Shown: positions 220 to 24,904 of the stretch, piece after piece | How the letters are laid out: each line of letters begins with the position of its first letter | Numbering within the stretch: the first letter of the stretch is position 1 | Assembly (NCBI RefSeq): GCF_013282725.1 | Contig: NZ_CP054043.1 | Span: 3,162,001-3,226,000, forward strand | DNA: 64,000 nt | Direction of reading: 5' to 3' | Origin: Yersinia mollaretii ATCC 43969 | GTDB lineage: Bacteria; Pseudomonadota; Gammaproteobacteria; Enterobacterales; Enterobacteriaceae | Translations under genes and position numbers: made by a program | The notes under the pieces: model-generated | Told to the model about the DNA's origin: nothing | What the model saw: the letters and a program-made list of their open reading frames with translations, nothing else | Databases searched by the model: none

Positions 220-221
220 GA

Positions 222-2633
222 TTAATCATTCTCCATCTGGCCGCGCTGACGGGCGCGCTTATCGCGTTCGTTCTTGGCAAGCGCATCGGTCATCATTCGC
301 TCCGCATCCTGTCGGCTCATGCCCGGCGGGATAGTCACCTTGATATCATTGGTGGTGACACTGCTATCAACGATAGTGGTGCCGGTATTGGCGGTGACCG
401 GCTGATAACCGCCGTATAACACGCCGCCACTGGGTGAGTACCCCCCCGCGTAAGGGTTATCTTTCGGGACGTTATCGGCCAGCCCGGCAGATTTACTATC
501 AATAATGCCGAGTTTTTCCAGTACCCAGTCAATGCCACTGCGTAGCTGCCCCAGTGCATCAATGGGAAGTTTGAGCGCATAAGCTAAACCTCGGCCGAAT
601 GTTTCCCCGGCAGTGGTAGCAATAAGCAACGACACCCCACTAAATTTGATGGGGGCGACCAATTCAGCAAACAGTGTCTTGAGCTGGTTAAAACCATTAA
701 TTAGCGGGGTAAATGCCGCACTGATTGGTCCGGCAACAGCGGTAAAGCCTGTCACTACACCCGCCATAAATGCGCTAATAGGCTCCCAAAACTTACGAAT
801 AAGCAGCGCACCAGCGATAATAAGTGCAATCACCGCAGTGACCGGCCATGCCAACGTGGCTAGTGTTGCGGCAATTGTTCCACCCATGATGGAAAAACCT
901 GTACTCAACAGACCAGCCCCGGCCAACAGCAGGTTAAACCCGGCCATGACCGGCCATGCAATCAGCCCCAGCGCCCCCAAGCCGGCAACCAGTACCAACG
1001 CCGCGCCAGTAACGGTGGTAATGGTGCTGACCAGCTCCGGGTTTTTCTTGGCCCATGCAGCCACATTAATCAGCCAGTCGGTTGCGGTTAGGGTCAGTTT
1101 GCGCAGCGCGGAGTCTTGCTTCTCAAAGACTTCAATCTCTAAGTCTTCCCATGCCGAACTCAGGTTTTTCAGGTCGCCGTCAAGGTTATCCATTCTGACC
1201 GTGGCAATAGATTGCGCGGTGCCACCGGCCTGCATCAGCTTACTTTGTTTCTCCGCCAGCTTGCCGTTACCGGCAGCAGCCACCAGTTTCACCGCGCCTT
1301 TCATCGCCTCTTCACCGAATATCACTTTCAGATACTCGGCTTGCTGTGCGGTGCCTAACGTGTTCTTTTTAAACGAGCGGTCAATATCTTTGAGGATTTT
1401 CGCCACCGGCAACATATTGCCTTTGTCGTCGCGGGTCGTTATTCCCAGTTCTTTCAGTGCGGCCGGTGCTTGCCCGACAGGCGCTTGCAACCGGCTAAAC
1501 ACCGCACTGGTACTGGTGCCCGCCATGCTGCCCTTGATACCGTTATCAGCCAGTACACCGAGTAACGCGGTGGTGTCTTCAATGCTGGCCCCGGCGGCCT
1601 CAGCAATCGGGGCCACATATTTCATGGCCTCGCCTAGCTCTAACAGGTTGGTGTTTGAGCTGGTAAAGCCTTTCGCCATCACGTCCGACACGCGTTTAAT
1701 CTGGTCTAACGGCAGGTTAAACGCCGATTGCATGTTGGTGACAATATCGGCCGCCTCGGCAATATCCACACCGGACGCCAGCGACAGGTTAACCGTCGGT
1801 TCAGTGGCGGCCAGAATAGAGTTAGCGTCATAGCCGGAACGCGCCAGTGTGTCTTGCGTTCGTGCTACGTCAGTCGGGGAAAAAGCTGTTGAACCGCCGA
1901 TATCTCGCGCCTGTTTACGAATGGCGGCCAGCTTGGCGTCATTTTTATCCAGCCCTAAAATCGCCTGAGTGCCCGACATCTGGCTATCAAACTCCATACC
2001 TGGCGCAACCAGTTTCGCCGCGCCGTACAGCCCGGCGGTTGCCACGCCAAGACTCGCCGCACTGGTATTACGCACGGCACTGGTGGCGGCTTTGCCTTGC
2101 TGGTAACGATTGCTGATACGGTTGAGTTGCTCCTGTTTCAAGCTCAGGCGTTGCAGTTCTTGGCGCTGGCGACTCAGGGCAACAGTCGCCTCGGCGGCGC
2201 TACTGCGTAACCGGCGTTGTTCACTGCTCAGGTTTTTGGTGGCAATGCCGTCAGCGTTAAGGGCGTCGCGCTGGCGCTGCACTGACTGGCGCAGCCCGTT
2301 GTATTTGGTTTGCAGTTCAGACGCCGCGCGCTTGGCTCCCTCCATCAGTCGGGCTTGTTGAGCGGTGGGTTTCTCGGTGTTTTTAAAGGCGATAGCCAGC
2401 GCCGCCGCGTCTTCTTTGGCTTTTTTCAGCGCCTGCCCGGTGACGGCCAGTTGGGCGCTGGCCTTGCGGAAACCGTCAATTTTTGCCGCCTGCGCATCAA
2501 GGGATTTGATGCTGCTTTGTGTGTTGCGAATATCCCCGGTGAGGGATTTACTGGCGGTTTGAATGGCTTTAAACGGGCGGGTGGCTTGGTCTACTGCTTT
2601 GAGCAATACCTGTAGCTGTAAGCTCTTACTCAT
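222..2633 (-). CDS. T: Tail tape measure protein gpT
   Basis: 803 residues, close to P2 gpT. The N-terminal 180 residues are Gln/Arg/Ala-rich and look coiled coil. Hydrophobic segments lie around residues 535-680, as usual for tape-measure proteins that may enter the target membrane. It sets tail length and acts inside the tube. It overlaps the end of the E' frame by 8 bases, a P2 arrangement showing translational coupling. The frame is intact over 2.4 kb, which argues for selection on tail production despite loss of the head genes. Confidence 0.92.
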   Translation of the reverse strand: MSKSLQLQVLLKAVDQATRPFKAIQTASKSLTGDIRNTQSSIKSLDAQAAKIDGFRKASAQLAVTGQALKKAKEDAAALAIAFKNTEKPTAQQARLMEGAKRAASELQTKYNGLRQSVQRQRDALNADGIATKNLSSEQRRLRSSAAEATVALSRQRQELQRLSLKQEQLNRISNRYQQGKAATSAVRNTSAASLGVATAGLYGAAKLVAPGMEFDSQMSGTQAILGLDKNDAKLAAIRKQARDIGGSTAFSPTDVARTQDTLARSGYDANSILAATEPTVNLSLASGVDIAEAADIVTNMQSAFNLPLDQIKRVSDVMAKGFTSSNTNLLELGEAMKYVAPIAEAAGASIEDTTALLGVLADNGIKGSMAGTSTSAVFSRLQAPVGQAPAALKELGITTRDDKGNMLPVAKILKDIDRSFKKNTLGTAQQAEYLKVIFGEEAMKGAVKLVAAAGNGKLAEKQSKLMQAGGTAQSIATVRMDNLDGDLKNLSSAWEDLEIEVFEKQDSALRKLTLTATDWLINVAAWAKKNPELVSTITTVTGAALVLVAGLGALGLIAWPVMAGFNLLLAGAGLLSTGFSIMGGTIAATLATLAWPVTAVIALIIAGALLIRKFWEPISAFMAGVVTGFTAVAGPISAAFTPLINGFNQLKTLFAELVAPIKFSGVSLLIATTAGETFGRGLAYALKLPIDALGQLRSGIDWVLEKLGIIDSKSAGLADNVPKDNPYAGGYSPSGGVLYGGYQPVTANTGTTIVDSSVTTNDIKVTIPPGMSRQDAERMMTDALAKNERDKRARQRGQMEND

Positions 2634-3104
2634 GATTTACGGCTCCACTGCGTAGTAGGGCTTTATGACGCCAGCGCACCAGCTCGGTGAGGCTCAAGGC
2701 CCAAAGCTCTGACGGCGGCCAGTGAAAAATGGCGGCAATATCCGCCATCAGGTCGTCAACTTCCAGTTTCGGGTCGAGCGTTACGCCCCCTGTTTCGGCG
2801 ACAAAAAACCAATCACCTTGCCCGCCAGCGCCACTAAATCCGGCAATTCCAAGCGGCTGCATTCTGCGGCGGTCAGTGTCGGTGTCGTGATCCGGGGTAA
2901 CACCACAATCAGCGCATCCACATCAGAATGAGCGACATCTGAAAGCCGCACCCCGCGCAGCGCCCCGGCATTCGGGCGGTAAACTTCAATTTCAGTAATC
3001 AGGGTATCGCCACGCTTTAGCGGTGTTTCCAGTACCACCACATTCTCGTTAACCTCGGCGATGGTTTCAGTTTTAACAGTGAGTTTTTTCATGGTTTTTT
3101 CCAA
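2626..3104 (-). CDS. E': Tail assembly chaperone gpE+E' (-1 frameshift product)
   Basis: The E frame (from 3104) and the downstream frame ending at 2626 overlap. A T_TTT_TTG slippery heptamer lies at 2802-2808 (minus strand) and is in the right phase for -1 slippage. The product would be about 159 residues: gpE residues 1-101 followed by 58 residues starting VAETGG. In P2, gpE and gpE+E' are the equivalent of lambda G/GT and help assemble tape measure and tube. Conservation of the slip site is seen directly; use of it is inferred from the family. Confidence 0.8.
2781..3104 (-). CDS. E: Tail assembly protein gpE
   Basis: 107 residues, beginning MEKTMKKLTVKTETIAE, between the tube gene FII and tape measure T as in P2. 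It is a tail-assembly chaperone that is not part of the finished tail. The real start may be the second Met (MKKLTV). Its last codons contain the slippery heptamer used to make gpE+E'; the zero-frame product ends six residues past it with a TAA at 2781. Confidence 0.88.
   Translation of the reverse strand: MEKTMKKLTVKTETIAEVNENVVVLETPLKRGDTLITEIEVYRPNAGALRGVRLSDVAHSDVDALIVVLPRITTPTLTAAECSRLELPDLVALAGKVIGFLSPKQGA
2802..2808 (-). promoter_or_regulatory. Programmed -1 frameshift slippery site
   Basis: Minus-strand heptamer T_TTT_TTG in the zero frame of gpE (codons GGT TTT TTG). After slippage the next codon is GTC and reading continues to 2626. The same heptamer serves P2 E/E'. A downstream structure was not evaluated. 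Confidence 0.75.
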
Positions 3105-3146
3105 TTCAGTCAGGGAGGGCCAGCGGGTAACACTGGCCGTCAGGGG

Positions 3147-3662
3147 TTAGCGGCCAATGGCCTTGCGTTGCGCTTCCAGCAGGTCTACGCCATTAACAAT
3201 TTCAATCAGGTTAACCACGTCAATTTCCATTACCACCTTGCCGTCAATGGTCAGCTTGTAGTAGGTACACTGGGTGGATACCTTGGTTTCAGTGTCTTCC
3301 CCTTGCTTGGATTCGCCGCCATCAATCTCTTTATGACGGCCACGGATTTCGACTTCTACCGCTGTCACTTCGCCGGTATCGTCACGCTGATAAGCGCCCG
3401 CAAAGCGCAGCGGAACCCCGTCAACTTTAGGCGTTCCCCATTGCTGCAACACCAGCTCGTCGAGGCCGCCCATCGACCACTCCATGGATAGCGCATCGTC
3501 ATCCAGACCCAAATCAATCGGCGCAACGCCATTCATCCCGCCGCCCCGGTAGTTCTCCAGCTTGCGAGTCAGTTTCGGCAGGGTGATGGCGGACACGATC
3601 CCCATGTAATCCCAGCCATCGTTAAACAGGTTCATCAATTTCAGCTTACGTGGCAGTGCCAT
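3147..3662 (-). CDS. FII: Major tail tube protein gpFII
   Basis: 171 residues, almost the P2 FII length. It begins MALPRKLKLMNLFNDG, typical of contractile tail tube proteins of the P2/Mu class. It polymerises into the inner tube that is driven through the envelope when the sheath contracts. It lies 13 bases after the sheath gene FI and before E, in the standard F operon order. Frame intact. Confidence 0.94.
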   Translation of the reverse strand: MALPRKLKLMNLFNDGWDYMGIVSAITLPKLTRKLENYRGGGMNGVAPIDLGLDDDALSMEWSMGGLDELVLQQWGTPKVDGVPLRFAGAYQRDDTGEVTAVEVEIRGRHKEIDGGESKQGEDTETKVSTQCTYYKLTIDGKVVMEIDVVNLIEIVNGVDLLEAQRKAIGR

Positions 3663-3675
3663 AAGTCAGTTTTCC

Positions 3676-4845
3676 TTAGCTGTTGACGGCGGCGGCAAAG
3701 TTCACCAAATATTTATCGGTGATACGCTGGCGCAGGGTTAAATCTTCCAGTGGTGGCACTGGGGTATAGTCGTAATCGATAAACAGCTTGCCCGCTTTCA
3801 GGGTGTCTTTATCGTTGGCGCTGTCGTCATACCAGCAAGCGCCGTCAATAATCAGCCCGGCGGATTTCATTTCGCGGAATTTGGCGTTGATGCTGCCAAT
3901 CATGTCTTTGACCAGCGTCGGGTGCATCGGGCGGTCTATCGCCCACAACTGCGCCTCGGCCATGGTGTCGGCCAGAATCTGCGCGGTGCGGGTGTAGTTC
4001 TCAAAGGCAAACAGTGGATCATCAGAACAGGTACGCGACCCCCAAAACTTGAAGCCGTCTTTACGAATTAGCGTTGTTACACAGGCTTTGTTAAGTAAGT
4101 CAGCGTCAGTGCCAACGGTCTGCAAATCCCAGTAGACGCTGGCAGAGATACCGGTTACGCCATTTACGCCGACGTTAGACAGGGTTTTATGCCAGCCGGT
4201 ATCAGTATCAATCTTGGCGCGCAGACCGAGGGCGCGGGCGGTGGCATAAGCAATATCTGTGCTGTTGGCGGTGGTGTTCCAGCTCAGGAAGTCCGGCCAA
4301 ATCAACATCAACTCGCGTTGGCTGAAATTGTCACGGTACAGGATAGCTTCGGAAAGGGTTTTGCAGCCATAAGCGCTGATATAGCCAAAGGCGCGCAACT
4401 GCTGGCAGATACTCGCCAGCGCAGTAGACACTTGTTGGTTATCCAGCCCCGGCACACCAAGAATGCGCGGACGCACGCCGGTGACTGATTGCGCATCTAA
4501 CAGCGCTTTCATACCGGTGTAGCGGCCGTTCTCGTCAGCACCGCCGATAATATTAGACGTGGTTTCGGCTTCATCTTTGCCGGTAGCCACTCGCACCACA
4601 ATGGTAACCGGGCGCGACTGTTCAGCAATCGCCAGCAATGACGCGGCCAGCGTGCCTTTCTTACCGGCTTTACCGGCGGCGGCGCGCACATCAGTGATCA
4701 GTACCGGGGTGTTGAGAGGGAATGCGGTTGCGTCAGCATCGTCACTGGTGCAGACCATGCCGACAATGGCGGTGGAAATAGTGGAAATGACACGCGTCCC
4801 CTCGTTGATTTCGAGAACGCGGACGCCGTGATGGTAATCACCCAT
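3676..4845 (-). CDS. FI: Tail sheath protein gpFI
   Basis: 389 residues, close to P2 FI. The N-terminus (MGDYHHGVRVLEINEGTR) and the body with …GVNGVTGISASVYWDLQ and C-terminal LRQRITDKYLVNF are typical of contractile sheath proteins. The sheath surrounds the FII tube and contracts on binding. It is first in the F operon, with a candidate activator-dependent promoter upstream (4868-4936). Its intact state supports a functional contractile particle. Confidence 0.95.
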   Translation of the reverse strand: MGDYHHGVRVLEINEGTRVISTISTAIVGMVCTSDDADATAFPLNTPVLITDVRAAAGKAGKKGTLAASLLAIAEQSRPVTIVVRVATGKDEAETTSNIIGGADENGRYTGMKALLDAQSVTGVRPRILGVPGLDNQQVSTALASICQQLRAFGYISAYGCKTLSEAILYRDNFSQRELMLIWPDFLSWNTTANSTDIAYATARALGLRAKIDTDTGWHKTLSNVGVNGVTGISASVYWDLQTVGTDADLLNKACVTTLIRKDGFKFWGSRTCSDDPLFAFENYTRTAQILADTMAEAQLWAIDRPMHPTLVKDMIGSINAKFREMKSAGLIIDGACWYDDSANDKDTLKAGKLFIDYDYTPVPPLEDLTLRQRITDKYLVNFAAAVNS

Positions 4846-4867
4846 GGGGTAACTCTCCGTTGGTTAA

Positions 4868-4936
4868 GGGTGAGAGTATGGTGACGACTTACCGCGCAGG
4901 GGGCATTCAATGGGTGTTTTGTGGTGGCTGGCACAA
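4868..4936 (-). promoter_or_regulatory. Candidate late promoter of the F operon
   Basis: Minus strand shows a dyad TTGTG…CACAA (4919-4936) resembling Ogr/186-B activator boxes. A -10-like CATACT lies at 4875-4880, roughly 55-60 bases from box centre to the expected start, the usual spacing of P2-family late promoters. The half-site gap is 10, not the canonical 12, so this is tentative. It would need Ogr, whose gene is outside the window. Confidence 0.35.
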
Positions 4937-4983
4937 CGAGAAAAACCGAGAAAAATAGGTCGTGATACATAGAGCACTGGAAC

Positions 4984-5007
4984 ATGAGAAACCAATGGGT
5001 TTCTCAT
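4984..5007. repeat. Perfect inverted repeat between invertase and FI
   Basis: Ten-base perfect arms (ATGAGAAACC / GGTTTCTCAT) with loop AATG, just beyond the invertase stop. A T-rich run follows on the plus strand but not on the minus strand, so it is a weak terminator for the minus-strand genes. It may act as a transcription or RNA-stability element. Confidence 0.5.
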
Positions 5008-5017
5008 TGCATGATTT

Positions 5018-5584
5018 TTATATTAGATTGCGGCGTTCTTCTGCTGGAATGTACTTGTAAATAGTTTTCGGTGACACATCAAGAACCAAAGCGACTTGAT
5101 GGAGGCTGGCACCATTTGCAAACATGCGCTTGGCCCGCTCAATCACTTCAGTTGTCATTATCCTACGACGCCCCCCAATTCGCCCCTCAGCCCTAGCTGC
5201 TGCCAGTCCAGCACGAGTGCGCTCGACGATAAGTTCACGTTCCATTTCAGCCAATGCAGACATGACATGAAAGAAAAAACGCCCCATTGCCGTACCAGTA
5301 TCAATGCTGTCGGTCAAACTGCGAAAGTGTACCCCTCGGGTCTTTAATTCTTCTATCAGCGCTATTAAATGGCGAACACTACGGCCCAAGCGGTCAAGTT
5401 TCCATACAACCAACGTATCACCCTCGGACATTGTACGCATTGCGCGTTTTAAACCCGGACGATCAGATGACTTTCCGCTTATTTTATCTTCAAAAATCTG
5501 TTCGCAATTTGCACTAACCAGCGCATTGCGTTGCAGTTCTGTATTTTGGTCATTTGTTGATACCCTGATATAGCCAATAAGCAC
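5018..5584 (-). CDS. Tail-fibre DNA invertase (Gin/Pin/Hin-type serine recombinase)
   Basis: 188 residues, the usual length. The N-terminal resolvase fold opens MLIGYIRVSTNDQ with the catalytic Ser9. The arginine-rich WKLDRLGRSVRHL segment follows, then the long E helix and a C-terminal Hin-type helix-turn-helix (around 140-185). Such enzymes invert DNA between 26-bp crossover sites with help from Fis. It lies beside three such sites (5658, 7104, 7739) flanking swappable fibre cassettes, so it is the likely switch for fibre specificity. Frame intact. Confidence 0.93.
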   Translation of the reverse strand: MLIGYIRVSTNDQNTELQRNALVSANCEQIFEDKISGKSSDRPGLKRAMRTMSEGDTLVVWKLDRLGRSVRHLIALIEELKTRGVHFRSLTDSIDTGTAMGRFFFHVMSALAEMERELIVERTRAGLAAARAEGRIGGRRRIMTTEVIERAKRMFANGASLHQVALVLDVSPKTIYKYIPAEERRNLI

Positions 5585-5657
5585 CTTATCACCCTCGTTA
5601 AATAGATAAAGTTTGTCACAAGTAAGCCGTGATAAAAATGGGCGGGGAAATATCCAA

Positions 5658-5683
5658 GGCTAAAAAACGTTGGTTTGGGCGAC
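5658..5683 (-). other. Invertase crossover site A (silent cassette 3)
   Basis: Core AAACCAACGTTT on the minus strand (5665-5676) with central AA, the same core as I recall for e14 Pin sites. It is inverted relative to sites B and C. It overlaps codons for N-V-G-L-G-D at the head of the plus-strand cassette. Confidence 0.8.
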
Positions 5684-6055
5684 ATCAGCGCTAAGTTGCC
5701 AAAATTCATAATTTCATACCCTGATGGTACAGAATCAGCACCGGCGATAATGACCAAAAACATAAGAAAGGCCATTGCAAATCCGTTCCCTAGCAGGCGA
5801 GTTGAAGCATTAGTTGAGGTTCTAATTGCAGGGAAATGGGGCGCGACGGGTTGGCTTTATAACCCCAACGTAGCTGGTTTTGGTAGTGGTATTTCAGCAT
5901 ACCCATACGGTTCCGGCTCATCAGATGATTTTATAATAATCCAATCGGGTGGGTTAGAAGTGACAACAAGTAGCTCAAGCGCGGGGAACCCGCATGGAAT
6001 TAACGCGCAAGTAACATCAGCCCCTTATCGCGTAAGAATTAAAACGGTGGATTAA
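5666..6055 (+). pseudogene. Silent tail-fibre C-terminal cassette 3
   Basis: Open frame from the crossover site: NVGLGDISAKLPKF…IKTVD, about 129 residues, without its own N-terminal fibre part or an obvious start signal. The first residues match the constant/variable junction of gpH (NLGLGE) in the same codon register. Inversion between site A and site C would fuse it in frame to the gpH constant region (residues 1 to about 253). The sequence is Gly/Ser-rich near the end, fitting a receptor-binding tip. It is an alternative allele held in reserve, not decay. Confidence 0.75.
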
Positions 6056-6228
6056 TGAATAAATATTTTGGAAAAAAAGATGACTCAACGGAGTTTTCAT
6101 TTGAATTAGGGTTAGCTATTGATACCAAGGGCTGGATATTAATGTCTGGCCCGCGTCCAACACCAGAGCATATTGCTACTAATGGTGGCGAGTGGGTACT
6201 TGCTGATACTCTACCTGATACTATTTAG
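6055..6228 (+). CDS. Small partner protein of fibre cassette 3
   Basis: 57 residues (MNKYFGKKDDSTEFSF…), starting at an ATG that overlaps the cassette 3 stop (TAATG), so translationally coupled. The middle (SGPRPTPEHIATNGGEWVL) resembles small ORFs that follow fibre genes in phages and may be a fibre chaperone. It would be expressed only when the cassette is inverted behind gpH. Confidence 0.6.
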   Translation: MNKYFGKKDDSTEFSFELGLAIDTKGWILMSGPRPTPEHIATNGGEWVLADTLPDTI

Positions 6229-6268
6229 TTATGTAAAATATACCGGGCAATTAAGCCCGGTGTATTAA

Positions 6269-6688
6269 TTATTGTGGCGATTCGGGCCACTCGACACCCG
6301 GCGCTTTTGATGTATCAATCCGCATCAACGCCAATCGATATTTACGCCACGCCGCAAGATCCACTATTTCCTTTTCGCTTGCACTGCCGTCATCAACAGC
6401 ATCTTGACGCCATTCAATTTCTGAATCGGCAGCAGCCTTTAACTGGTTCTTTTTAGCAATAGCGCTGGCGACCAATTCCTCATGTGTCGGCGGTGGTAAA
6501 TCCACCCACGCAGGACGCCCAGTAGCAACACCCAATGTTTTTCCGCAGGGTGGTGATTGCTTCCAATAGTTGAGCCTTTCGCTATCAGACAATTCAACAA
6601 AATCGCCATAACTATCACTATAGCTACCATCTTCGACCATATCTAATGTACGAAAACCAAGTATTGTGGGGCTGAAAAATATTTTCAT
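6269..6688 (-). CDS. tfa: Tail fibre assembly protein (Tfa family) of cassette 2
   Basis: 139 residues from the Met at 6688 (MKIFFSPTILGFRT). A C-terminal half with PTHEELVASAIAKKNQL…EIEWRQDAVD…EIVDLAAWRKYRLALMRID is diagnostic of caudoviral Tfa chaperones, which help trimerise the fibre tip. It starts 1 base after the cassette 2 stop. It is probably translated only when cassette 2 is expressed, unless readthrough from gpH covers it. Confidence 0.88.
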   Translation of the reverse strand: MKIFFSPTILGFRTLDMVEDGSYSDSYGDFVELSDSERLNYWKQSPPCGKTLGVATGRPAWVDLPPPTHEELVASAIAKKNQLKAAADSEIEWRQDAVDDGSASEKEIVDLAAWRKYRLALMRIDTSKAPGVEWPESPQ

Positions 6689-6689
6689 A

Positions 6690-7121
6690 TCAATATCCAA
6701 TAACAAAATATGCGACAAAACCGCCAACCGTTGCGTTTAGAACGCGCTCAAACGCCCATACAGTACAGCCAGTTACTCCTCCTATATGCTGGAAAACAGG
6801 GAAATCACCACCGCCATCCATATAATTATCTCCGGGTATGCAAGATGTGCCGGTGATAGAGAAAACAGCAGTTGGGAACTGGATTGGATAGGTGATTTTT
6901 GCCGACTTTTCACTAACGGTTGTGGGTATTACAACTCTCCCCCACTGCAAAATTAATCCACCTGGAACATCAGGTATGCGAATGTAGTCATTTTCAGAGA
7001 AAGCTCGTTTACCGAAAATACTCATTAACCCAACCAGTGAAACCAGCTTATCCGCTGTTCCCACCTGCATTTCCGCATTTGATGCAATTCCCTTTTTAGC
7101 CGCGTCGCCTAAACCAACGTT
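6690..7121 (-). pseudogene. Silent tail-fibre C-terminal cassette 2
   Basis: Frame NVGLGDAAKKGIASNAE…FVIGY, about 143 residues, preceded in frame by TAA TGA so it cannot be a free fibre. It begins with the same junction motif as gpH. The C-terminal part (…LILQWGRVVIPTT…FPTAVFSITG) resembles gp53-type fibre tips. It lacks an N-terminal part and its own start; it is followed directly by tfa. It lies in the same orientation as gpH, tail to tail with cassette 3. Confidence 0.75.
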
Positions 7122-7129
7122 TCATTACT
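7104..7129 (+). other. Invertase crossover site B (silent cassette 2)
   Basis: Plus-strand core AAACCAACGTTT (7111-7122), identical in its 12-base core to site A but inverted relative to it. Flanks differ outside the core. The codon register of N-V-G-L-G matches sites A and C. Confidence 0.8.
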
Positions 7130-7277
7130 CAATTTTGCTCTCGGTATTTGCCTCGACCAAAGTTTCTAAATGAGACTTTATTTCTGATTCCGTTGCCTCT
7201 CTAGCGCCATCTATTTTATCTCCGGTATAAATAAAACCGTCCGCGTTGATATAGAATTTAATTTCTATGCTACCCAT
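7125..7277 (-). CDS. Small partner protein of the active fibre cassette
   Basis: 50 residues (MGSIEIKFYINADGFIYTG…), starting 11 bases after the gpH stop and ending with TAA TGA at crossover site B. The pattern of an N-terminal beta segment followed by DKIDGAREATESEIKSHLE resembles short fibre-associated ORFs of temperate phages. It probably assists the current gpH tip, as Tfa and the 6055 gene do for theirs. No certain family. Confidence 0.6.
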   Translation of the reverse strand: MGSIEIKFYINADGFIYTGDKIDGAREATESEIKSHLETLVEANTESKIE

Positions 7278-7288
7278 ATAACCTCCGC

Positions 7289-8518
7289 TTAATACCAAAT
7301 TCTAAAAATGTAGCGCCAATTACTTACAGGGGAATTGGTGACTAATGCCCCAGTAGTTCGGTTTATAAATTCAATGCCTGAAATACTGGTATCAGTAACC
7401 GGCGTAAACAGTCGTATGTCTGTTAACGATAAGCTGGGCGTAACGGATAACGTATGATATGCAACCGCATTGATGGTTAACGAGGCTGAAAGTGCAACAT
7501 CCCCAACAGCGTAGCCATCTCCTGCAACGGCTCGCTTTAGAACAACATCACATTTGCAGCGCAGTAAATTTAATCCCGTCAACCCATGAGCGGAAATTGT
7601 CATTGTGTTATTAACTGGCGTGTACTCATTTGACACCCATAACCGGGTATTTTCTGCGTTAACTTTAATGTAACGCTTATCACTAATTGCTATGTCAGGG
7701 ATGTCATTTGTTTCCGTTCCTACCCCGCGTTTCGCAGCTTCTCCCAGACCAAGGTTTGCGAGAGTCTCAGCCAGTGCGGCTGGCCCCAGTGCTTTAATCT
7801 CAGATAACAGATTGGCAATCTGAAAATACTGGTCGTGCGGATTAGCGTCTTTGCCGTGGTCTCCCAATGCTTTCGCTGCTGCTTCGGCGACTGTTTTGAC
7901 CGCTTTCGGCGTGGCGGCTAACACTTCGCTATCGCTGGTTGTGGCACTGCTTAATTTAACAAAGCCCTTTTCGGTCTTACTGGCATCCGGGTGATTGCGT
8001 GATTTCTCATGCTCGGTGAGCAGGTTGTCAGCGTACTGCTTAACCTCAATCGCTTTATCATCAGCATACTTGCGCGTAGCCAGCACCACTGACGGGTCGA
8101 TTTTCAGCGTGACAGCAGCCGTGCTACTGACAATTAAAATCATCCGAATGGTTTGGGTGCGCCCGCTGCCCTCTTGCAATTGTGGCTTATAAGTTTCGGC
8201 GCAGTTGGCAATGGCAATCAAGTCACCGTCTTTATCCAGCAAGCCAATTTCACGGATCCACCACCCGCCCTCAGTCTCAGGGATAACCTGTTCAGCAATA
8301 ATCTGACTGGTGTTAATCGGGTCAATGGTCAGCATGTTAAGGGCGGCGCGGCGCTGCTCATTCACCAGTTTGGTTTGTGCCGGGATAGGGGTTGGCAGGG
8401 TTCCGCCGCCATCCCCGACCGCCATTTGGGTAATCTCTAAGCGGGTGCCGAGCGCGGTGGCGTTCGCCAGCTTGGCCGCACCAATATTGGTCAGTAAAGC
8501 AAAGAATCTCGCTGTCAT
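7289..8518 (-). CDS. H: Tail fibre protein gpH (constant N-terminus plus active variable tip)
   Basis: 409 residues, shorter than P2 gpH (about 669). The N-terminal 150 residues (MTARFFALLTNIGAAKL…ETEGGWWIREIGLLD) are the conserved P2 fibre attachment domain (DUF3751 type). Repeat-like DASKTEKGFVKLSSAT and DHGKDANPHDQY segments follow. A crossover site overlaps codons 254-262 (NLGLGEAAK), so residues from about 254 on are the switchable tip. It overlaps the gpI stop by 4 bases. Confidence 0.92.
   Translation of the reverse strand: MTARFFALLTNIGAAKLANATALGTRLEITQMAVGDGGGTLPTPIPAQTKLVNEQRRAALNMLTIDPINTSQIIAEQVIPETEGGWWIREIGLLDKDGDLIAIANCAETYKPQLQEGSGRTQTIRMILIVSSTAAVTLKIDPSVVLATRKYADDKAIEVKQYADNLLTEHEKSRNHPDASKTEKGFVKLSSATTSDSEVLAATPKAVKTVAEAAAKALGDHGKDANPHDQYFQIANLLSEIKALGPAALAETLANLGLGEAAKRGVGTETNDIPDIAISDKRYIKVNAENTRLWVSNEYTPVNNTMTISAHGLTGLNLLRCKCDVVLKRAVAGDGYAVGDVALSASLTINAVAYHTLSVTPSLSLTDIRLFTPVTDTSISGIEFINRTTGALVTNSPVSNWRYIFRIWY
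7739..7764 (+). other. Invertase crossover site C inside gpH
   Basis: Starts TTCTCCC, core AGACCAAGGTTT (7746-7757), ends GCGAGAG: the best match of the three to the Gin/Cin/Pin consensus. The central dinucleotide is AA as in sites A and B. It is direct relative to B and inverted relative to A, so only A-C and A-B exchange give inversion. Confidence 0.8.
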
Positions 8519-9123
8519 GGGTTCACTCTCAGGTCATCGATAATGTGGATTGCGGCACTGGCGTAACCCTCGCCGGTCACGGTTATAGTTTCAGGTAAAT
8601 ACGGGTATACGGTCAGTTCATCACCGCTGTAACTGGCGGCGGCTATATACAGCGGGCCGCTACTGTCGAGATTGATGGACAGGCCGACTAAGTGACGGCT
8701 GCATGGCTTGGCGTCGTCTATCAGCCGCTCAAGCTCTTGATACATTTCCTCGGTAATGCCGGTTTCCAATACACCTACATCGAGGCGAAAGGTGCCGGGT
8801 GTTTCGTTGGTCTTCCACCACTCAATCACCTTGATGAGATAGCCGAGCGGCTCAACCACCCGACGAATTGCGCCAATGGTGCCTTTGTGTTTGTGGACGT
8901 ACTGCGAGGACTTCACCACCTCACGCTTGGTGGCTTCCGGCCAGTTCTCATCCCAGCGGTCAACAGACCACGCCCACGCCAGATAGGGCAACAGTGGTAG
9001 CGGGCAAGTGTCGGCGTTCCAGAGCTGGCGAATCGGAACCGGGGTATTTTCCAGCTCGGCGCAGGCGCGCGCGGCGGCCACTTCCAGCACAGAAGAACCA
9101 ACAGGCAATAAACGGTCAGTCAT
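8515..9123 (-). CDS. I: Baseplate protein gpI
   Basis: 202 residues from the ATG at 9123 (MTDRLLPVGSSVLEVAAA), chosen because it matches the P2 gpI start; an upstream ATG at 9204 would add 27 residues lying inside J. It contains LPYLAWAWSVDRWDENWPE and HKGTIGAIRRVVEPLGY, typical of the gpI/DUF2313-like wedge family. It builds the baseplate with W and J. It overlaps J by 8 bases and H by 4. Confidence 0.9.
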   Translation of the reverse strand: MTDRLLPVGSSVLEVAAARACAELENTPVPIRQLWNADTCPLPLLPYLAWAWSVDRWDENWPEATKREVVKSSQYVHKHKGTIGAIRRVVEPLGYLIKVIEWWKTNETPGTFRLDVGVLETGITEEMYQELERLIDDAKPCSRHLVGLSINLDSSGPLYIAAASYSGDELTVYPYLPETITVTGEGYASAAIHIIDDLRVNP

Positions 9124-10024
9124 CCGTACCCCCGACAGTGATGTTGCTGCCGGTACAATAGGCCGCTTGGGTTTTATCCAACACCACATCAGCCAGGGGG
9201 GCATTAATTACCGCCCGCTGGACACCCTCAACATGCAGCGCGGCATACAGAGCCGATAGGCGAATGTCGCGACCAAGGCGGCGTTGTGCAGTGACAAAGG
9301 CAGTCAGTTTCTTCTCAGCCGCAAGGCGCACCGGCTCAGCCTCCGGCCCCGGATGCAGATAGAGCACCGCGTCAATCTCATAATCTTCAATGTGGGCCGA
9401 TTGCACCGTCACCCGGTCAGCCACCGGCCGCGTGTTCTCATCATTCAGCGCGGCTTCAACCACGGCCAGCAGTTCGGCTGAGGCTTCGCCGTTGCCATCC
9501 CGCGATAACACCGTGACCGTGACACAGGCGGGGGTCGGACTGATTGCCGAGGCATCGGCCACACGGCCGTCAGCACTTTTGGCGTGATATTCATACGCAC
9601 CCGTTGGCCCGGCGACACTCAAGCCCTCAAAGGCTTGCGGGATACGCACCCGGAAATAACTGTCAGATTCCATCACCGCCTCAATCGGCGGAATGGCCGT
9701 GGGGTCTGCCGGGGTGATAACCAGCCGCTCAACGTTGTTATTTGCGCCGAGCTGGTCTAAATCGCTGCCGACGGCATAGGCCACCATCACCGCGCGGGCC
9801 GCATCATTGACGCGCTGGCGCAATATCACCTCGCGATAGGCGTTTTCCTGTAGCAACTTGACCAGCGGCTCCGACTCCAGCGACAACGTGCGGGCCACGG
9901 CGGCGCGCTGTTCTTCCGGGTAAAGAGATATCAGCGTGGCTTTACGCTCGGCCAGCAGGGTTTCATAATCCAGTTCTTCCACCACAAACGGCGGCGGTAA
10001 CAGGCTCAGGTCAATGGTTGCCAT
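9116..10024 (-). CDS. J: Baseplate wedge protein gpJ
   Basis: 302 residues, the P2 gpJ length, starting MATIDLSLLPPPFVVEELD. It has the Baseplate_J pattern with LEAE-type helices and …AYAVGSDLDQLG… and …VTVTVLSRDGNGEA…. It forms the wedge ring with gpI around the spike hub. Coupled to gpI by an 8-base overlap and 4 bases after gpW. Intact. Confidence 0.95.
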   Translation of the reverse strand: MATIDLSLLPPPFVVEELDYETLLAERKATLISLYPEEQRAAVARTLSLESEPLVKLLQENAYREVILRQRVNDAARAVMVAYAVGSDLDQLGANNNVERLVITPADPTAIPPIEAVMESDSYFRVRIPQAFEGLSVAGPTGAYEYHAKSADGRVADASAISPTPACVTVTVLSRDGNGEASAELLAVVEAALNDENTRPVADRVTVQSAHIEDYEIDAVLYLHPGPEAEPVRLAAEKKLTAFVTAQRRLGRDIRLSALYAALHVEGVQRAVINAPLADVVLDKTQAAYCTGSNITVGGTDD

Positions 10025-10028
10025 AGGG

Positions 10029-10379
10029 TTAGCTCACAGGGATGGTTAAAGAGAGGGGGGCCGCGCTATCGGTGCGAGTGCCGGTGATATCAACCACCAT
10101 TTTCCCGTCAAAAGTGGTTTCAAAGGTGATGCCAGTCAGTTTGACCCTCGGCTCCCAGCGCAAAATGGCACTGTAACTGGCGGCCATAATTTGCAGGCGC
10201 AGGGCCGGATTTTGTGGCTGGTCAATCAGCTCCGATAGCAGCGAACCATAAGCACGGCGCATCACCCGCGAACCCACAGGGGTGATAAGAATGTCAGCGA
10301 TAGACTGGCTGATGTGGTCAGCGTCGGTAATGGTTTGCCCGGCGTTGCGGCTCATGCCGAGATAGGTGACAGTGGTCAT
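10029..10379 (-). CDS. W: Baseplate protein gpW (gp25-like)
   Basis: 116 residues with the gp25-like wedge fold. The motif VGSRVMRRAYGSLLSELID is the hallmark of the family. It joins the sheath to the baseplate and starts sheath polymerisation. Its ATG overlaps the V stop (10376-10379), giving coupled translation. Confidence 0.95.
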   Translation of the reverse strand: MTTVTYLGMSRNAGQTITDADHISQSIADILITPVGSRVMRRAYGSLLSELIDQPQNPALRLQIMAASYSAILRWEPRVKLTGITFETTFDGKMVVDITGTRTDSAAPLSLTIPVS

Positions 10380-11017
10380 TTAATCCCCTCCGTATAATCC
10401 CCGCCGCGCAAGACGCCGCCGTGGTCATGGTTATCAACTACCACGCCATTGGATGAGAACTTGCCGCCGGAATGGTCAATGTTGCCGCTCATCGTGCCGC
10501 CTTTCTTCACGTTCAACGTGCCGGTGGTCAGGTTGTTGGTGCATTCCACTTCGGGTGTATCCAGCAGGATTTTGACTAATGCGGCACAGGTGATAGTGGG
10601 GGCGGTGGCATTTATCGATTCACTGGCATTGATAACCGCCGTTTTGATGCCATCAGCCCGCAACTCGCCGCTCTCAGGCTCGTAGTGCAACGTGGCACCG
10701 TCAGGAAAGGCGATATACAGGCCATCCGCCGAGGCCGACGGCGGCGGGAAGTCATCAGAAAAAATGCCCGGCAGCACAAAGGCGGTATCCAGCTCGCCGC
10801 CGAGGGACAATATCAACACCTGCTCCCCCTCAGACGGTGCCCACCATGATCGCGATTGACCGGCGCGCAGCGTCAGCCAGTTTAACCAGCCGGTGGTATT
10901 GTCTCCCGTCGCCACACGGCACAGGGCATTGTCGAGATCGACCTCGGCCACCGTACCAATACGGATCAGGTTGCGCAGCAGGCGCAGAATTTCAGTGATT
11001 TGGGTTTGAGTGTTCAT
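10376..11017 (-). CDS. V: Baseplate spike protein gpV
   Basis: 213 residues from the ATG at 11017 (MNTQTQITEILRLLRNLIRIG), which aligns with P2 gpV from memory; the upstream ATG at 11047 adds ten unrelated residues. There is an OB-like head, then a beta-helical needle. Near the C-terminus NHDHGG gives the His-x-His that binds iron at the spike tip in P2 gpV. This protein pierces the target outer membrane, so its intact tip fits a working injection or killing device. Confidence 0.92.
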   Translation of the reverse strand: MNTQTQITEILRLLRNLIRIGTVAEVDLDNALCRVATGDNTTGWLNWLTLRAGQSRSWWAPSEGEQVLILSLGGELDTAFVLPGIFSDDFPPPSASADGLYIAFPDGATLHYEPESGELRADGIKTAVINASESINATAPTITCAALVKILLDTPEVECTNNLTTGTLNVKKGGTMSGNIDHSGGKFSSNGVVVDNHDHGGVLRGGDYTEGIK

Positions 11018-11065
11018 GTGATTGAGGATGCCGTATTTACTCGGCATACCTCAATTAAGTTGAGA

Positions 11066-11083
11066 TGTACTACGTGTGACACA
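11066..11083. promoter_or_regulatory. Possible Ogr/B-type activator box upstream of V
   Basis: TGT-N12-ACA, the P2 Ogr pattern; on the minus strand it also fits much of the 186 B consensus (GTTGT-N8-T…CA). It lies between the caspase cargo and V. The spacing to the V start is short for a -55 activator site and the -10 is poor, so function is doubtful. Confidence 0.3.
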
Positions 11084-11131
11084 ACGTAAAATAAATTTAA
11101 TACAAAATATTTCTTTCTTCTTACTGTATTA

Positions 11132-12616: not shown

Positions 12617-12698
12617 ATTTTTATCCTTCTGTTGTCTGTGGTTATTTAAGTTAGCTTTGTTTTAGCTTAAATTCAATTCATTTGAATAATTTAAATAT

Positions 12699-13154
12699 CT
12701 ATAACATTGAAGAGATGAATTCTAGCGTTTGATCATGAATATAGTTGAGATCTTGCTGACTGAAACCGAGCAACGGCCGCTCGTCATACTGCACATCTTT
12801 GCTGTGTACGTTCGGACGGTCACGCAGGCCAAAATGGTGCACTGTCGCCATCCGTTCCACGCGCCCGGCGAACTCGACCACAGCCCCATCAGGGCTACTG
12901 TTGGCTTTCATATAGCGGGCGGTGCGTAACTTGGCGAACATTTCCCTTTTAATACGGCCTTTTGGCTTACGCAATGGTTGAGATTTACGGGCGGCATACG
13001 GGGTGCCGTCGGGCGCTTGTTGGCATTTAATGCGTTGTTGCTGGCTGGCCCGCAGGTGTTTAGCAACTGTCACCGCCAGCGCTTTGCGCGCCTTTGGGGT
13101 CAGACTGGCAATCAGCCCGGCCAATGCATCATCAAAGGGTTTCAACTCATTCAT
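12699..13154 (-). CDS. S: Tail completion protein gpS
   Basis: 151 residues, the P2 gpS size, with KARKALAVTVAKHLRASQQQRI and the ending VHHFGLRDRPN…YIHDQTLEFISSML. It belongs to the virion morphogenesis family that finishes the tail. It overlaps R by 4 bases. It is the last gene before the caspase insertion; in P2, V would follow with its own late promoter. Confidence 0.92.
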   Translation of the reverse strand: MNELKPFDDALAGLIASLTPKARKALAVTVAKHLRASQQQRIKCQQAPDGTPYAARKSQPLRKPKGRIKREMFAKLRTARYMKANSSPDGAVVEFAGRVERMATVHHFGLRDRPNVHSKDVQYDERPLLGFSQQDLNYIHDQTLEFISSML

Positions 13155-13606
13155 TTGACCGTTTCACCGTTAAAGTAGATGGCTGTTGGCCGTGTTGGCG
13201 TACCCGGCCACGCCGGTTCCAGCGCATGGTTAACATGCAATGCACCGTCTACCTCTTTCACAATGGCCCGCTCAGTCAGTTGCAGGTCGATACGGATATC
13301 ACTCAACACATCGCTCATCACATCAACCTTATGAATAAAACCGGTGTGGCGTTTTTCTTCTGTTGCCATGATGTCCGGTTGATGTTCCCGTAGCCATGCC
13401 AGTATCGGCACAAAGAGATAATCAACATCATCGGGGAAATCCTCAATAAACAGCGTCAGCGTATATTGATTTTCAAAAGACAGCGACGGGGCCAGCGTTG
13501 AGACAATTCGCCCGCCATCAACAAACATTTTCAGCCGCTCCGGGTTAGTCTGGAACAGTTGCAGACTGTCGGTTAAGGCTTGGCGTAACAGTTTGGGTTT
13601 TAACAT
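13151..13606 (-). CDS. R: Tail completion protein gpR
   Basis: 151 residues, MLKPKLLRQALTDSLQLFQTNPERLKMFVDGG, the typical start of the P2 gpR tail terminator family. It caps the tail at the head-proximal end. It overlaps S (4 bases) and the lysC frame (62 bases), as in P2. Confidence 0.93.
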   Translation of the reverse strand: MLKPKLLRQALTDSLQLFQTNPERLKMFVDGGRIVSTLAPSLSFENQYTLTLFIEDFPDDVDYLFVPILAWLREHQPDIMATEEKRHTGFIHKVDVMSDVLSDIRIDLQLTERAIVKEVDGALHVNHALEPAWPGTPTRPTAIYFNGETVK

Positions 13607-14118: not shown

Positions 14119-14119
14119 A

Positions 14120-14819: not shown

Positions 14820-14821
14820 TT

Positions 14822-15498: not shown

Positions 15499-15597
15499 GG
15501 CAACCTCAATATCAGAATGGGTGGGCGGTGGACGACGGCGTTAACAAGGTAAACTCTGTTGCGGCCATCGTGCCGCCCGGCTCGGGGAGCGTTCGGG

Positions 15598-16260: not shown

Positions 16261-17223
16261 TTATTTACCCTCGTCGGTAACGGTAGGTGCGGAGGCTGTT
16301 TTCACCGCTTCAACCAGTGCATCAGCAAGACGATCAAAGTTGGATTTGTCCGCTGCTTCGGTGTCTTCTTTTTTCGGCGGCGATAAAATCTCGATATTTT
16401 CCACCAGACAGCCGCAGGCGTAATCCTCCACCACATAATCCTGTTTAATGGATTCATAGTTTTCGATGCGGTCACGCTTGGCGTTCTCATCGATATGGCG
16501 GCGGTGTGAGTCTTCCAGCCAGTAAATAGACAGGTTATCGAGGCGGGTGATCATGAATGCGTTAGCCGGGAAGAATGGCACACGGATAGCAGAGGTGATA
16601 TCTAACCGGCCTTTCAGGTATTTGCGCCAGTGCATCGGCGTGATATTAAAAGCGCGCGCCATTCTGGCAAGATCGCCGAATATGCGTACCTGTGTATCAG
16701 CCTGCAATAAAACAGCCCTGTCACCCTGATTAGCCTTAATGCATTCATCATAATGATGGTTGTACGCCACCATTAACTCATCGCCGATTTTGCGGGCAAA
16801 GCGGCGCAGCTCTTTATCATGCATACCCGCTAGGCTGGCATAGGTTGGGGCATCAGTGGAAAAGCTCATTGACGCACTGAGGCGCATAACATTTTTACTA
16901 TTGACCACCTGAATACGCGGCCAGATACGCTGGTCAAAAACAAACACCAGCCATTTATTAGCGTCGTTTAACCCTTTATTGGCTAACAGGTATTGATAGC
17001 GAGAAATAAACTGGCTACGCAGGAAGTGGGGCAGATTATTGATATTGGCTAAAACAGCTTGCCCCTGAATCAGTTGTTCACGGGTAAGCGGTCTTGCAGG
17101 TGCAAGGGTTTGGCGCGGTTTACTGCCGGGGTAGGCGTAAGCAGGAACAGCAGCGCCACTGCCCGGATAGGGTAACGGCGCTGTTGGGGTAATACGGCCA
17201 CGCATATTATTAATGCTGGTCAT
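16261..17223 (-). CDS. Fusion of replication protein gpA (N-terminal part) to capsid protein gpN (C-terminal part)
   Basis: 320 residues in one open frame. Residues about 50-207 match the N-terminal domain of P2-type gpA (PLTREQLIQGQAVLANINNL…FNITPMHWRKYLKGR). Residues from about 212 match the C-terminus of capsid gpN (RVPFFPANAFMITRLDNLSIYW…DYVVEDYACGCLVE). The join is near 16590. The gpA nicking tyrosines (C-terminal half in P2) and most of the capsid fold are gone. Either it is simply the scar of a deletion removing the rest of A, cos, Q, P, O and N, or a chimera kept open to preserve translation into M. It overlaps the upstream gene by 14 bases. Confidence 0.88.
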   Translation of the reverse strand: MTSINNMRGRITPTAPLPYPGSGAAVPAYAYPGSKPRQTLAPARPLTREQLIQGQAVLANINNLPHFLRSQFISRYQYLLANKGLNDANKWLVFVFDQRIWPRIQVVNSKNVMRLSASMSFSTDAPTYASLAGMHDKELRRFARKIGDELMVAYNHHYDECIKANQGDRAVLLQADTQVRIFGDLARMARAFNITPMHWRKYLKGRLDITSAIRVPFFPANAFMITRLDNLSIYWLEDSHRRHIDENAKRDRIENYESIKQDYVVEDYACGCLVENIEILSPPKKEDTEAADKSNFDRLADALVEAVKTASAPTVTDEGK

Positions 17224-24046: not shown

Positions 24047-24102
24047 TTTTTAAAATCCCTCGGCTTATGGCTGTGCGGGTTCAAGTCCCGCCCCGGGCAC
24101 CA
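24047..24102 (+). other. tRNA-Leu 3' fragment, prophage/island attachment site
   Basis: From the anticodon region (TTTAAAATCCCTCGGC) through variable arm, T-arm (GCGGGTTCAAGTCCCGC) to GGGCACCA, matching the 3' part of tRNA-Leu(UAA) leuZ. No 5' half precedes it, so it is a duplicated att repeat; the intact tRNA should be at the other prophage end, outside the window. A tRNA terminator follows at 24147. Confidence 0.85.
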
Positions 24103-24146
24103 TGGAAAATATTCTAAGTAAAACAAAGTAGTATGAGTATGTCGTT

Positions 24147-24169
24147 AACCGCCGAGAGGCGGTTTTTTT
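24147..24169 (+). terminator. Rho-independent terminator after tRNA-Leu fragment
   Basis: AACCGCC-GAGA-GGCGGTT hairpin followed by TTTTT. Probably the original terminator of the tRNA operon, now downstream of the tRNA fragment. Confidence 0.9.
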
Positions 24170-24904
24170 GTTTTTGGTGATCAGCCAAAATTGAGAAGTG
24201 GCGCCAAAATGGCGGCATTGTGTCTACGGTACTTTTCACACCCTCAAAGCAGTAAGCACGATAATGTTGTTGTATCAATGCCATCATAGTTATTTACGAT
24301 GCCGCGCAAATTTGGCGCGGTGTTTAACGGTAAAATTTATATTGGCCTTATTGACACAGATCCGACTATTTCCTCGAATCAGATTCAAGTTTTTTAGAGA
24401 ATGAGGATGGTAGCTGAGTTCTGGTCGCTCAACCTCTAATTATCAATACGGGTGGATAACCTTCGTCACAGCAAAACAATTTAATGCGCGAATATTGGCC
24501 TGCGTTGCATTCATGGCATTCTGGTTGATGCGCGTTGTGGCCATACGAACGAAACAGATGCAACCACATCAGGTAAGGTTTAGATTCAAGGGCTGTGTTT
24601 GGTCTCAATGGCTGTAATTGGGGGGGAGATGTGAACCAGCCTCGAACATAGAAATGGCAGGTACAGATTGCAGAAACTGTAACATAGGCCTGCAGCTTGC
24701 AACTGCTGCCAACATTTCTGGAAAAGCTTGCGATTTCTCAGGTTGTGCAGGCATTCGCTGACGTTAATGTCAGCATCCAAAAAGAAAAAGAATCCAATCA
24801 TTAGGATTAAGTTATTCTGCAGAAAAGTCGCATTCAAGGTAGCTCGGTTATGGACATAGCAGTGTAAGTAATATAAAAATCCGGGCTTAACTGCCCAGCT
24901 TATT
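24170..24904. other. Gap with no convincing gene
   Basis: A plus-strand frame around 24438-24595 (…TFVTAKQFNARILAC…) has no start, family or ribosome site and may be a gene scar. A 141-residue minus-strand frame (24586-25011) is Cys-rich, overlaps the DUF1493 gene and looks spurious. Confidence 0.5.

Follow-up and report, generated by a model that had tools for sequence, protein, structure and literature searches.

Evidence for a three-site DNA-inversion switch in the tail fiber locus of a headless P2-like prophage of Yersinia mollaretii

Can a prophage with one tail fiber gene and three unlike fiber tips exchange those tips by inverting its own DNA? The question is raised by a P2-like prophage of Yersinia mollaretii ATCC 43969 that reaches into a stretch of 64,000 nucleotides (contig NZ_CP054043.1, positions 3,162,001 to 3,226,000, forward strand), here called the window and numbered from its first letter. 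At its fiber locus a gene for the tail fiber protein gpH lies near a gene for a serine DNA invertase, with two further tip cassettes between them and three short repeats, termed sites A, B, and C. We are confident that this locus is a three-site DNA-inversion switch of the prophage. Its parts, with open reading frames (ORFs) sized in amino acids (aa), are as follows.

5018..5584, minus strand: Gin/Pin-type serine DNA invertase, 188 aa, GTG start (PF00239, E 2.1e-49; PF02796; phrog_125)
5658..5683, core 5665-5676, minus strand: crossover site A, adjoining the invertase; recombined with C in a second copy of the element (L093)
5666..6055, plus strand: silent tip cassette 3, beginning NVGLG; its frame runs open from site A; joined to gpH in L093/P0001
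6055..6228, plus strand: 57-aa ORF, small partner of tip 3; phage 201.16 has a homologue with the annotation 'tail fiber assembly protein'
6269..6688, minus strand: tail fiber assembly protein (Tfa) of tip 2 (PF02413, E 6.3e-26; phrog_188)
6690..7121, minus strand: silent tip cassette 2, beginning NVGLG, with a Gp53-like C-terminal domain (PF21882, E 1.2e-11)
7104..7129, core 7111-7122, plus strand: crossover site B, direct repeat of C; unchanged in L093
7125..7277, minus strand: 50-aa ORF, small partner of tip 1; site B overlaps its stop codon
7289..7738, minus strand: active tip cassette 1, the C-terminal part of gpH; same or similar tip on other N-terminal parts (P0017, P0019)
7739..7764, core 7746-7757, plus strand: crossover site C, within gpH (NLGLG); recombined with A in L093
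about 7763-8518, minus strand: constant N-terminal part (N-part) of gpH, within the gpH gene
7289..8518, minus strand: gpH tail fiber gene, 409 aa (PF12571, E 1.7e-64; PF03406)

The evidence that carries this reading is a second copy of the element in a different state. The contig IMGVR_UViG_638341241_000001 was the closest locus in viral-contig scans with the invertase, tip 1, tip 3, tip 2, and the gpH N-part. A base-by-base comparison of its fiber region (L093) with window 1-11584, made in three overlapping pieces, gives exact agreement except that 5665-7757 is inverted. Only five mismatches accompany the inversion: two toward gpH (7742 and 7747), one toward the invertase (5675), and two inside the inverted segment (5669 and 7753). 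All five fall within sites A and C. As these are the very differences between A and C, inner and outer half-sites have been exchanged and the crossover lies in 5670-5674 / 7748-7752, an interval that reads ACCAA and includes the central AA. The inverted segment from A to C measures ~2.1 kb and the inversion is perfect. In this copy gpH runs into tip 3 and its small ORF, while tip 1 lies silent and adjoins the invertase; a protein database entry (P0001) has the same gpH-tip 3 fusion with its start called further downstream. With a length of 25,953 bp, the contig extends by arithmetic from 1,914 bp left of the window to window 24038, so that it represents the same 26-kb element. It was read over 11021-25018 (L093, L174, and L221), and the comparison excludes its head region. 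The window and the contig may come from the same strain, in which case the isomers would be two assemblies of one strain. At the level of assembled sequence, the A x C switch has demonstrably operated in the present element, with junctions defined to the base and an in-frame gpH-tip 3 product sequence. An invertible fiber locus with a Gin/Pin-type invertase had been proposed from the window alone (the original prediction), and it is supported by this natural A-C isomer at base resolution and by two further isomer pairs described below.

What marks the exchange points? Each site is 26 bp long with a central AA, and A is inverted with respect to B and C. In a common orientation, site A reads GTCGCCCAAACC-AA-CGTTTTTTAGCC, site B reads GTCGCCTAAACC-AA-CGTTTCATTACT, and site C reads TTCTCCCAGACC-AA-GGTTTGCGAGAG. 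Their starts (5658, 7104, and 7739), the Gin/Pin-type core, and the central AA had all been given correctly in the original prediction. The exact core, ARACCAASGTTT, occurs 3 times in the 64 kb. With one mismatch or fewer allowed there are 4 matches versus 1.18 expected, and the loose motif alone is weak evidence because 4 of 100 shuffles also reach 4. The stricter pattern CCYARACCAASGTTT, which was composed after sites A, B, and C had been seen, has exactly 3 matches in the 4.6-Mb genome, namely A, B, and C, and its reversed control pattern has 0. Chance repeats were rejected as an explanation of the sites on these counts.

The sites also share a codon register, as had been predicted: A and B read NVGLG and C reads NLGLG, all in the same phase, and the constant part of gpH would therefore always read into a new tip in frame. 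Of the 97 distinct contexts on the tip side that the loci fetched at that point provided (many of them related, those shorter than 160 nucleotides dropped), 95 stay open for 50 codons in the N-x-G-x-x phase, compared with 7 and 2 in the other phases. To judge from these contexts, a shared codon phase is a general rule across such fiber loci.

The pieces joined by this register are a typical fiber base and three dissimilar ends. By Pfam, gpH has a P2-type collar-fiber N terminus followed by a fiber repeat, and in a PDB sequence search it weakly matches the Mu fiber S chains 8ju3 and 5yvq. Tips 1, 2, and 3 are not meaningfully similar to one another (best E 0.16). In both silent tips, the interval from the last stop to the site is free of start codons. 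Silent tip 2 is preceded by two in-frame stops, and a 126-aa piece could begin at the internal ATG at 7070; the first possible start of tip 3 is a TTG at 5675, within site A. The weak PDB matches of tip 2 include fibers (4mtm, E 5.8e-4; 6ct8; 6cl6), outranked over residues 15-50 by BURRH repeat proteins that look spurious. Tip 3 has no match by sequence in PDB, Pfam, or PHROG, and its small partner ORF has none in Pfam or PHROG; the tip 3 homologues that were read are joined at NLGLG to tail-fiber N-parts. The small partner ORF of tip 1 also lies downstream of tip 1 in Yersinia loci L029 and L030. The predicted arrangement of one active and two silent cassettes stands, as does the expectation that each tip has its own partner (ORF 7125-7277 for tip 1, Tfa 6269-6688 for tip 2, ORF 6055-6228 for tip 3). 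The silent cassettes had been placed on opposite strands, and this needs correction: only tip 3 is opposite, and tip 2 shares the gpH strand.

The invertase that adjoins the locus is intact. It aligns with Gin over residues 1-183 of 188 (4m6f, 263.7 bits; also 3uj3) and possesses a resolvase catalytic domain with an active-site serine and a C-terminal helix-turn-helix; Ser9, whose mutation had been named beforehand as grounds for abandoning the idea, is retained. Within the first 90 bases of its gene, two matches to the Fis consensus form a pair with a spacing of 48 bp, a putative recombinational enhancer.

5548..5562, minus strand: Fis-like site 1, putative enhancer, center about +29/30 in the invertase gene
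5500..5514, minus strand: Fis-like site 2, putative enhancer, center about +77/78 in the invertase gene

A Salmonella diarizonae locus (L080) has the same 48-bp spacing at +23/+71; L056 and L074 are without the pair. After duplicates and cut 5' ends were removed, the pair was found in 18/18 distinct 5' ends at 85% identity or more (one being the present element), in 14/14 at 74-85%, in 48/71 at 60-74%, and in 0/2 below. It supports, and does not prove, Fis control of inversion.

Other invertases deserve a brief mention. The host genome has three further invertase/resolvase relatives (3458017-3458568, 3403702-3404235, and 3452756-3453301, with 48%, 33%, and 34% identity, respectively), which might act in trans on the locus; the exact core is absent from their 3.5-kb loci. 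In Escherichia coli, 3492 of 5426 genomes match the invertase stretch in the spread listing, mostly at 60-80% identity, and such invertases are therefore common in that species. Yersinia nurmii (L035/L082) carries an invertase relative that is split over two frames beside an intact crossover site and looks decayed. At L104 3459-6552, two invertase genes (both 92%) face outwards around a tip 2/Tfa cassette with two sites.

Is the present element alone in having isomers? Phages vB_YenM_56.17 (L025) and vB_YenM_201.16 (L026) have two sites in the same places and are in opposite orientations between them, and their invertase is 93.6% identical to that of the window. Their 1431-bp inter-site segments agree at 1429/1431 positions when one is inverted versus 374/1431 when compared directly, and the flanks adjoining both sites are collinear. 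On this alignment the fibers of 56.17 and 201.16 differ by one inversion. Five elements with the tip 2-like/tip 3 pair were read, and the tip 2 type is on the fiber in three (L025, L106, and L110) and tip 3 in two (L026 and L100). Hammerl et al. (2022, PMC9224151) describe the fiber C termini of the two phages as diverged and their host ranges as differing, in a main text without the strings 'inver', 'recombinase', or 'phase variation'. By Table 3 of that paper, with 50 strains, both phages plaque on 17, 56.17 only on 5, and 201.16 only on 3, and one of the latter 3 is the lysogen that yielded 56.17. No inference on tips was drawn from these host ranges because other genes differ too. The second pair belongs to a different Yersinia phage that shares tip 1. 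In Y. frederiksenii (L030/L041), a different fiber N-part is active and tip 1 lies silent adjoining the invertase; protein P0019 joins the N-part of the active L030 fiber (99 residues identical) to the tip that is silent in L030 (155 residues identical). By these identities, L030 and P0019 are an isomer pair.

How would three sites work together? The invertase would pair A with an oppositely oriented site and exchange strands at the central AA, probably helped by Fis bound within the invertase gene, and each tip would bring its own small partner or Tfa gene. Sites B and C are direct repeats, and B x C recombination would therefore delete tip 1 rather than invert it. Enumeration with the two segments treated abstractly, and with inversions between opposed sites only, predicts four isomers, with tip 1 on gpH in two and tips 2 and 3 in one each.

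State 1 (window): gpH carries tip 1; tips 2 and 3 are in reserve
State 2 (A x B): gpH still carries tip 1; tips 2 and 3 have changed places
State 3 (A x C): gpH carries tip 3; the state of the IMG/VR contig
State 4 (from state 3): gpH carries tip 2

Tip 2 would thus be reached in two steps, A x C and then the new C x B, if site B is used. It had been predicted that either A-C or A-B inversion would change the receptor; A-C does swap the tip, as in L093, and A-B alone leaves tip 1 on gpH. A swap of tips would in turn be expected to change the surface receptor bound by the tail. The partner genes may move as well: in state 1 the Tfa of tip 2 lies downstream of gpH-tip 1 on the same strand and could be co-transcribed with it, and in state 2 it would be replaced there by the tip 3 partner.

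For the present element, two states have been seen (tip 1 and tip 3), and the locus offers its one constant N-part three C termini in a single frame, with three sites. Sites A and B agree at 12/12 core bases. A protein search with a full-length relative of gpH-tip 2 gave 177 proteins, of which the best 120 were listed and 4 read, and one of these, P0037 (397 aa), has an N-part identical to that of window gpH at 256/259 residues and a tip identical to tip 2 over 138 residues. This sequence shows that a gpH-tip 2 protein is encoded naturally in a close relative. Three-site loci appear rare within the loci searched. Among the best 80 loci by gpH N-part, three exact cores occur in 1 (the same element) and two in 3; a further 3 carry a single core with no invertase, and the remaining 73 carry no exact core; among 131 invertase loci, at least 2 have three exact cores, L093 (the present element) and L124. 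Such counts are lower bounds because degenerate sites are missed and many loci are cut by contig ends. Phage loci of E. coli and Klebsiella, searched with one mismatch or fewer, have one site in L202 and two in L203, L204, and L205. L124 is a possible multi-site locus, with cores at 669, 1070, and 1669 all in one orientation, a 75%-identical invertase adjoining, and an N beside one core.

Where did the third cassette come from? On the gpH side, window and 56.17 align collinearly as far as site C; collinearity resumes at site B and runs 172 bp into tip 2. Between B and C, core to core, the window has 635 bp added, and the rest of tip 2 is diverged. The 26-mer formed by joining the inner half of B to the outer half of C, the half-sites on either side of the addition, occurs in 4 elements (56.17, 201.16, and two IMG/VR contigs), represented by 7 fetched loci. 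The tip 1 piece itself also occurs in Y. frederiksenii, as the silent cassette in another type of phage. In G003, tip 1 and the small ORF follow a P2-like N-part with a B-like site, the order C-tip 1-B is kept, and no invertase is present in the 10 kb read. The simplest reading of these alignments is that tip 1 and its small ORF were inserted exactly at the crossover core of a two-site module, leaving B and C as direct repeats; alternatively, other lineages may have lost tip 1 from an older three-site form. No fewer than five different fiber N-parts are joined at NLGLG to these tips or to similar ones (P0013, P0014, P0015, P0017, and P0019), the N-part of P0015 being of the gpH type.

Five further loci (L179, L182, L187, L188, and L190) have an exact core at the fiber junction, with no invertase relative detected in the stretch; such a core might be a relic, or else a place at which exchanged tips land.

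What particle would carry the fiber? The prophage is bounded by a perfect 123-bp repeat that marks the element ends, with the left copy outside the window at L200 7958-8080. The right copy and a fused ORF that marks the loss of head genes are placed as follows.

24049..24171, plus strand: right attachment repeat, 123 bp, identical to the tRNA-Leu 3' end and adjoining DNA left of the window
16261..17223, minus strand: fused ORF, the start of the replication protein gpA joined to the end of capsid gpN (PF05125 at residues 210-277; phrog_91 at 7-208, phrog_70 at 209-285)

Compared with phage 201.16, which has annotated head genes, the tail and baseplate genes are full length: the matches to X, R, S, V, W, J, I, FI, FII, E, T, U, and D span almost the whole gene and are free of stops, and the same is true of the retained holin, lysozyme, and LysB. 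The head genes gpM and gpL are also retained nearly end to end. Portal, both terminase ATPase ORFs, scaffold, and Cox gave no match from 10 kb left of the window to window 25000. Others are partial, with the capsid matching at 275-383 of 411, gpA at 3-212 of 759, and the integrase at 1-40 of 345, and the CI repressor is only 28% identical to its 201.16 counterpart. To judge from its gene content, the element should make tails but not phage by itself, and since no heads are to be expected from it alone, its product would be either tails (tailocin-like) or fibers supplied to other particles. Its tail, baseplate, fiber, and lysis genes are intact and its head and packaging genes absent or broken, apart from the remaining gpM and gpL. 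Of 25 Yersinia genomes searched, each from a different species, 14 gave a match, and the gpA-gpN fusion was present in just 1 of these, the host genome itself; a headless cluster conserved across strains or species was not seen among them. We do not class the element as a tailocin because such conservation is lacking and its activity is predicted only.

The prophage carries further genes of possible interest. Between gpV and gpS, a cargo slot holds a caspase-domain ORF in the window (11132-12616, minus strand) and a retron-type reverse transcriptase in 56.17 (L025 8457-8939); next to gpV, 31.17 (L027 6576-7032) and 06.16-2 (L028 6579-7032) have a hypothetical gene, and 201.16 has none. ORFs with a SIR2 domain and with likeness to HerA (20895-23815, plus strand) match PADLOC models of an anti-phage pair; they lie inside the right attachment repeat and adjoin a 64-aa N-terminal fragment of an integrase. 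Beside the CI repressor is a BRCT-containing ORF (19528-20409, plus strand; phrog_3989, E 8.8e-98; weak PADLOC match to PDC-S48).

Several other explanations have to be weighed against a three-site switch. The NLGLG codons might be nothing more than short homology for ordinary recombination between phages, with no site-specific switch at all. The joining of shared tips to at least five N-parts at this motif would fit such exchange, as would the 73 of the best 80 loci by N-part that have neither an invertase nor an exact core, some of them cut by contig ends. However, the perfect 2.1-kb inversion with its exchange within 5 bp of a 26-bp site, the intact invertase adjoining it, and the further isomer pairs make this extremely improbable, and homologous tip exchange was rejected as the sole explanation because the exchange maps to 5 bp; it may still add to the exchange of tips. 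A closer competitor holds that only A-C works, so that site B is an unused insertion scar, tip 2 is locked away, and the element is a two-state switch between tip 1 and tip 3. The two observed states do differ by A x C alone, with B unchanged, and G003 keeps its C-tip 1-B order in the stretch where no invertase was read. Yet the full match of the B core to the A core and the intact frames of Tfa and tip 2 speak for a usable site, and a near relative, possibly with two sites, encodes gpH-tip 2 (P0037), which makes this reading slightly less probable still; we consider an A-C-only switch unlikely. Several observations do count against the three-site switch that we prefer. P0037 may be state 4 of a three-site element, but it may also be a two-site element without tip 1. 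No recombined site B was found in a search that covered viral contigs (scans with the invertase, tips 1-3, and the gpH N-part), genus genomes, and proteins, with metagenome contigs and the plasmid collection left out. The half-sites are not uniform, as beside the center site A has AACG and site C AAGG. In 201.16 and one IMG/VR contig, tip 3 is the neighbor of the joined 26-mer, which means that the inner half is not specific to tip 2. The published host ranges of 56.17 and 201.16 overlap widely. Finally, the Fis-like pair is present in only 48/73 distinct 5' ends below 74% identity, and 264 of 5000 synonymous shuffles of the invertase gene also carry it.

Other possibilities concern the purpose of the switch. 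The headless prophage may have been kept as an R-type tailocin, with tails that the phage lysis genes set free to kill relatives and a fiber switch that sets the target range, as in carotovoricin. Full-length tail and lysis genes, the missing matches for portal, terminase ATPase, and scaffold, and a fiber switch active now or recently speak for this. Against this, the gpA-gpN fusion in a single genome gives no sign of long-term conservation, gpM and gpL are still there, and any decaying prophage passes through such a stage, and we hold the tailocin only as a tentative possibility that falls somewhat short of an even case. Bolder, and in our view rather doubtful as a whole, is the combined proposal of a headless tailocin with an active three-tip switch whose third tip was captured at the crossover core, so that its sites both switch tips and, integron-like, gather further tips from other phages. 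The fibers might instead defend the producing cell, a chimeric fiber blocking the adsorption of other phages, as StfE2 does after PinQ inversion in E. coli e14. StfE2 is said to carry a gp53-like C-terminal domain (PMC12529663) and tip 2 has the Gp53-like_C domain; moreover, the host prophage is cryptic and carries the SIR2-HerA pair and the caspase-like ORF. But gpH retains its full phage-type N-part, the whole tail is kept, and Gp53-like domains are common in fibers (177 relatives of one such tip), and we judge this role very unlikely.

Taken together, the locus offers a natural case in which sequence data alone reveal a fiber switch operating to within 5 bp. The model predicts exactly four isomers with unequal tip frequencies, and it allows two published Y. 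enterocolitica phages to be re-read as inversion isomers of one fiber module. A crossover site that doubles as the boundary of an extra cassette suggests a testable route by which tips could move between different phages. Should tails be produced by the headless element, they would amount to a tail-like bacteriocin of Yersinia that can be aimed in three ways.

How does this compare with known systems? In enteropathogenic E. coli (EPEC) strain E2348/69, a P2-like prophage is described as having three inverted repeats with overlapping inversions of ~2,200 and ~1,800 bp, which give four variants with three alternative C termini of one protein, all four detected in culture by reads and polymerase chain reaction (Goldberg et al. 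2014, PMC4272514). The present element resembles it in its P2-like prophage, three sites, three C termini, and four isomers, predicted in our case. It differs in that one second state is known here, from another assembly, and in that the prophage is headless; the likeness holds to the EPEC locus as described. Phages 56.17 and 201.16 (PMC9224151) share with the window the backbone, the positions of A and C, and tip 3, and have a related tip 2, but they have two sites and are without the tip 1 cassette.

For Min of p15B, Cin of P1, and Gin of Mu, inversions by a serine invertase are described as giving variable tail fiber types (PMC6109161). Gin is the closest solved structure to the window invertase, whereas the backbone here, unlike that of these three systems, is P2-like. 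Min has more sites, and Gin and Cin have two. In PinQ/e14 StfE2, inverted repeats TTGGTTTGGGAGAAGG are reported to yield chimeric fibers that block phage T2 (PMC12529663). That system has in common with ours a serine invertase, inverted repeats, chimeric fibers, and a cryptic prophage; unlike the window, it has two repeats, and its invertase acts from another prophage. Enterocoliticin was set aside as a close relative, as its injection apparatus is likened to Mu and the main text of PMC13030884 is without the words 'invertase', 'inversion', and 'invertible'.

Carotovoricin of Pectobacterium, with its invertase Ein, is genus-wide and kills (Nguyen et al. 2001, as cited in PMC13195805). Like the present element, it combines genes of a phage-tail-like particle with an invertible fiber locus, and the comparison gains weight because this prophage has lost head genes; in contrast to carotovoricin, the head deletion here is found in one genome only, and any killing activity is putative. 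Given the precedents of EPEC, Min/Cin/Gin, and Ein, the type of switch is already known, and the Y. mollaretii locus is a new example of it.

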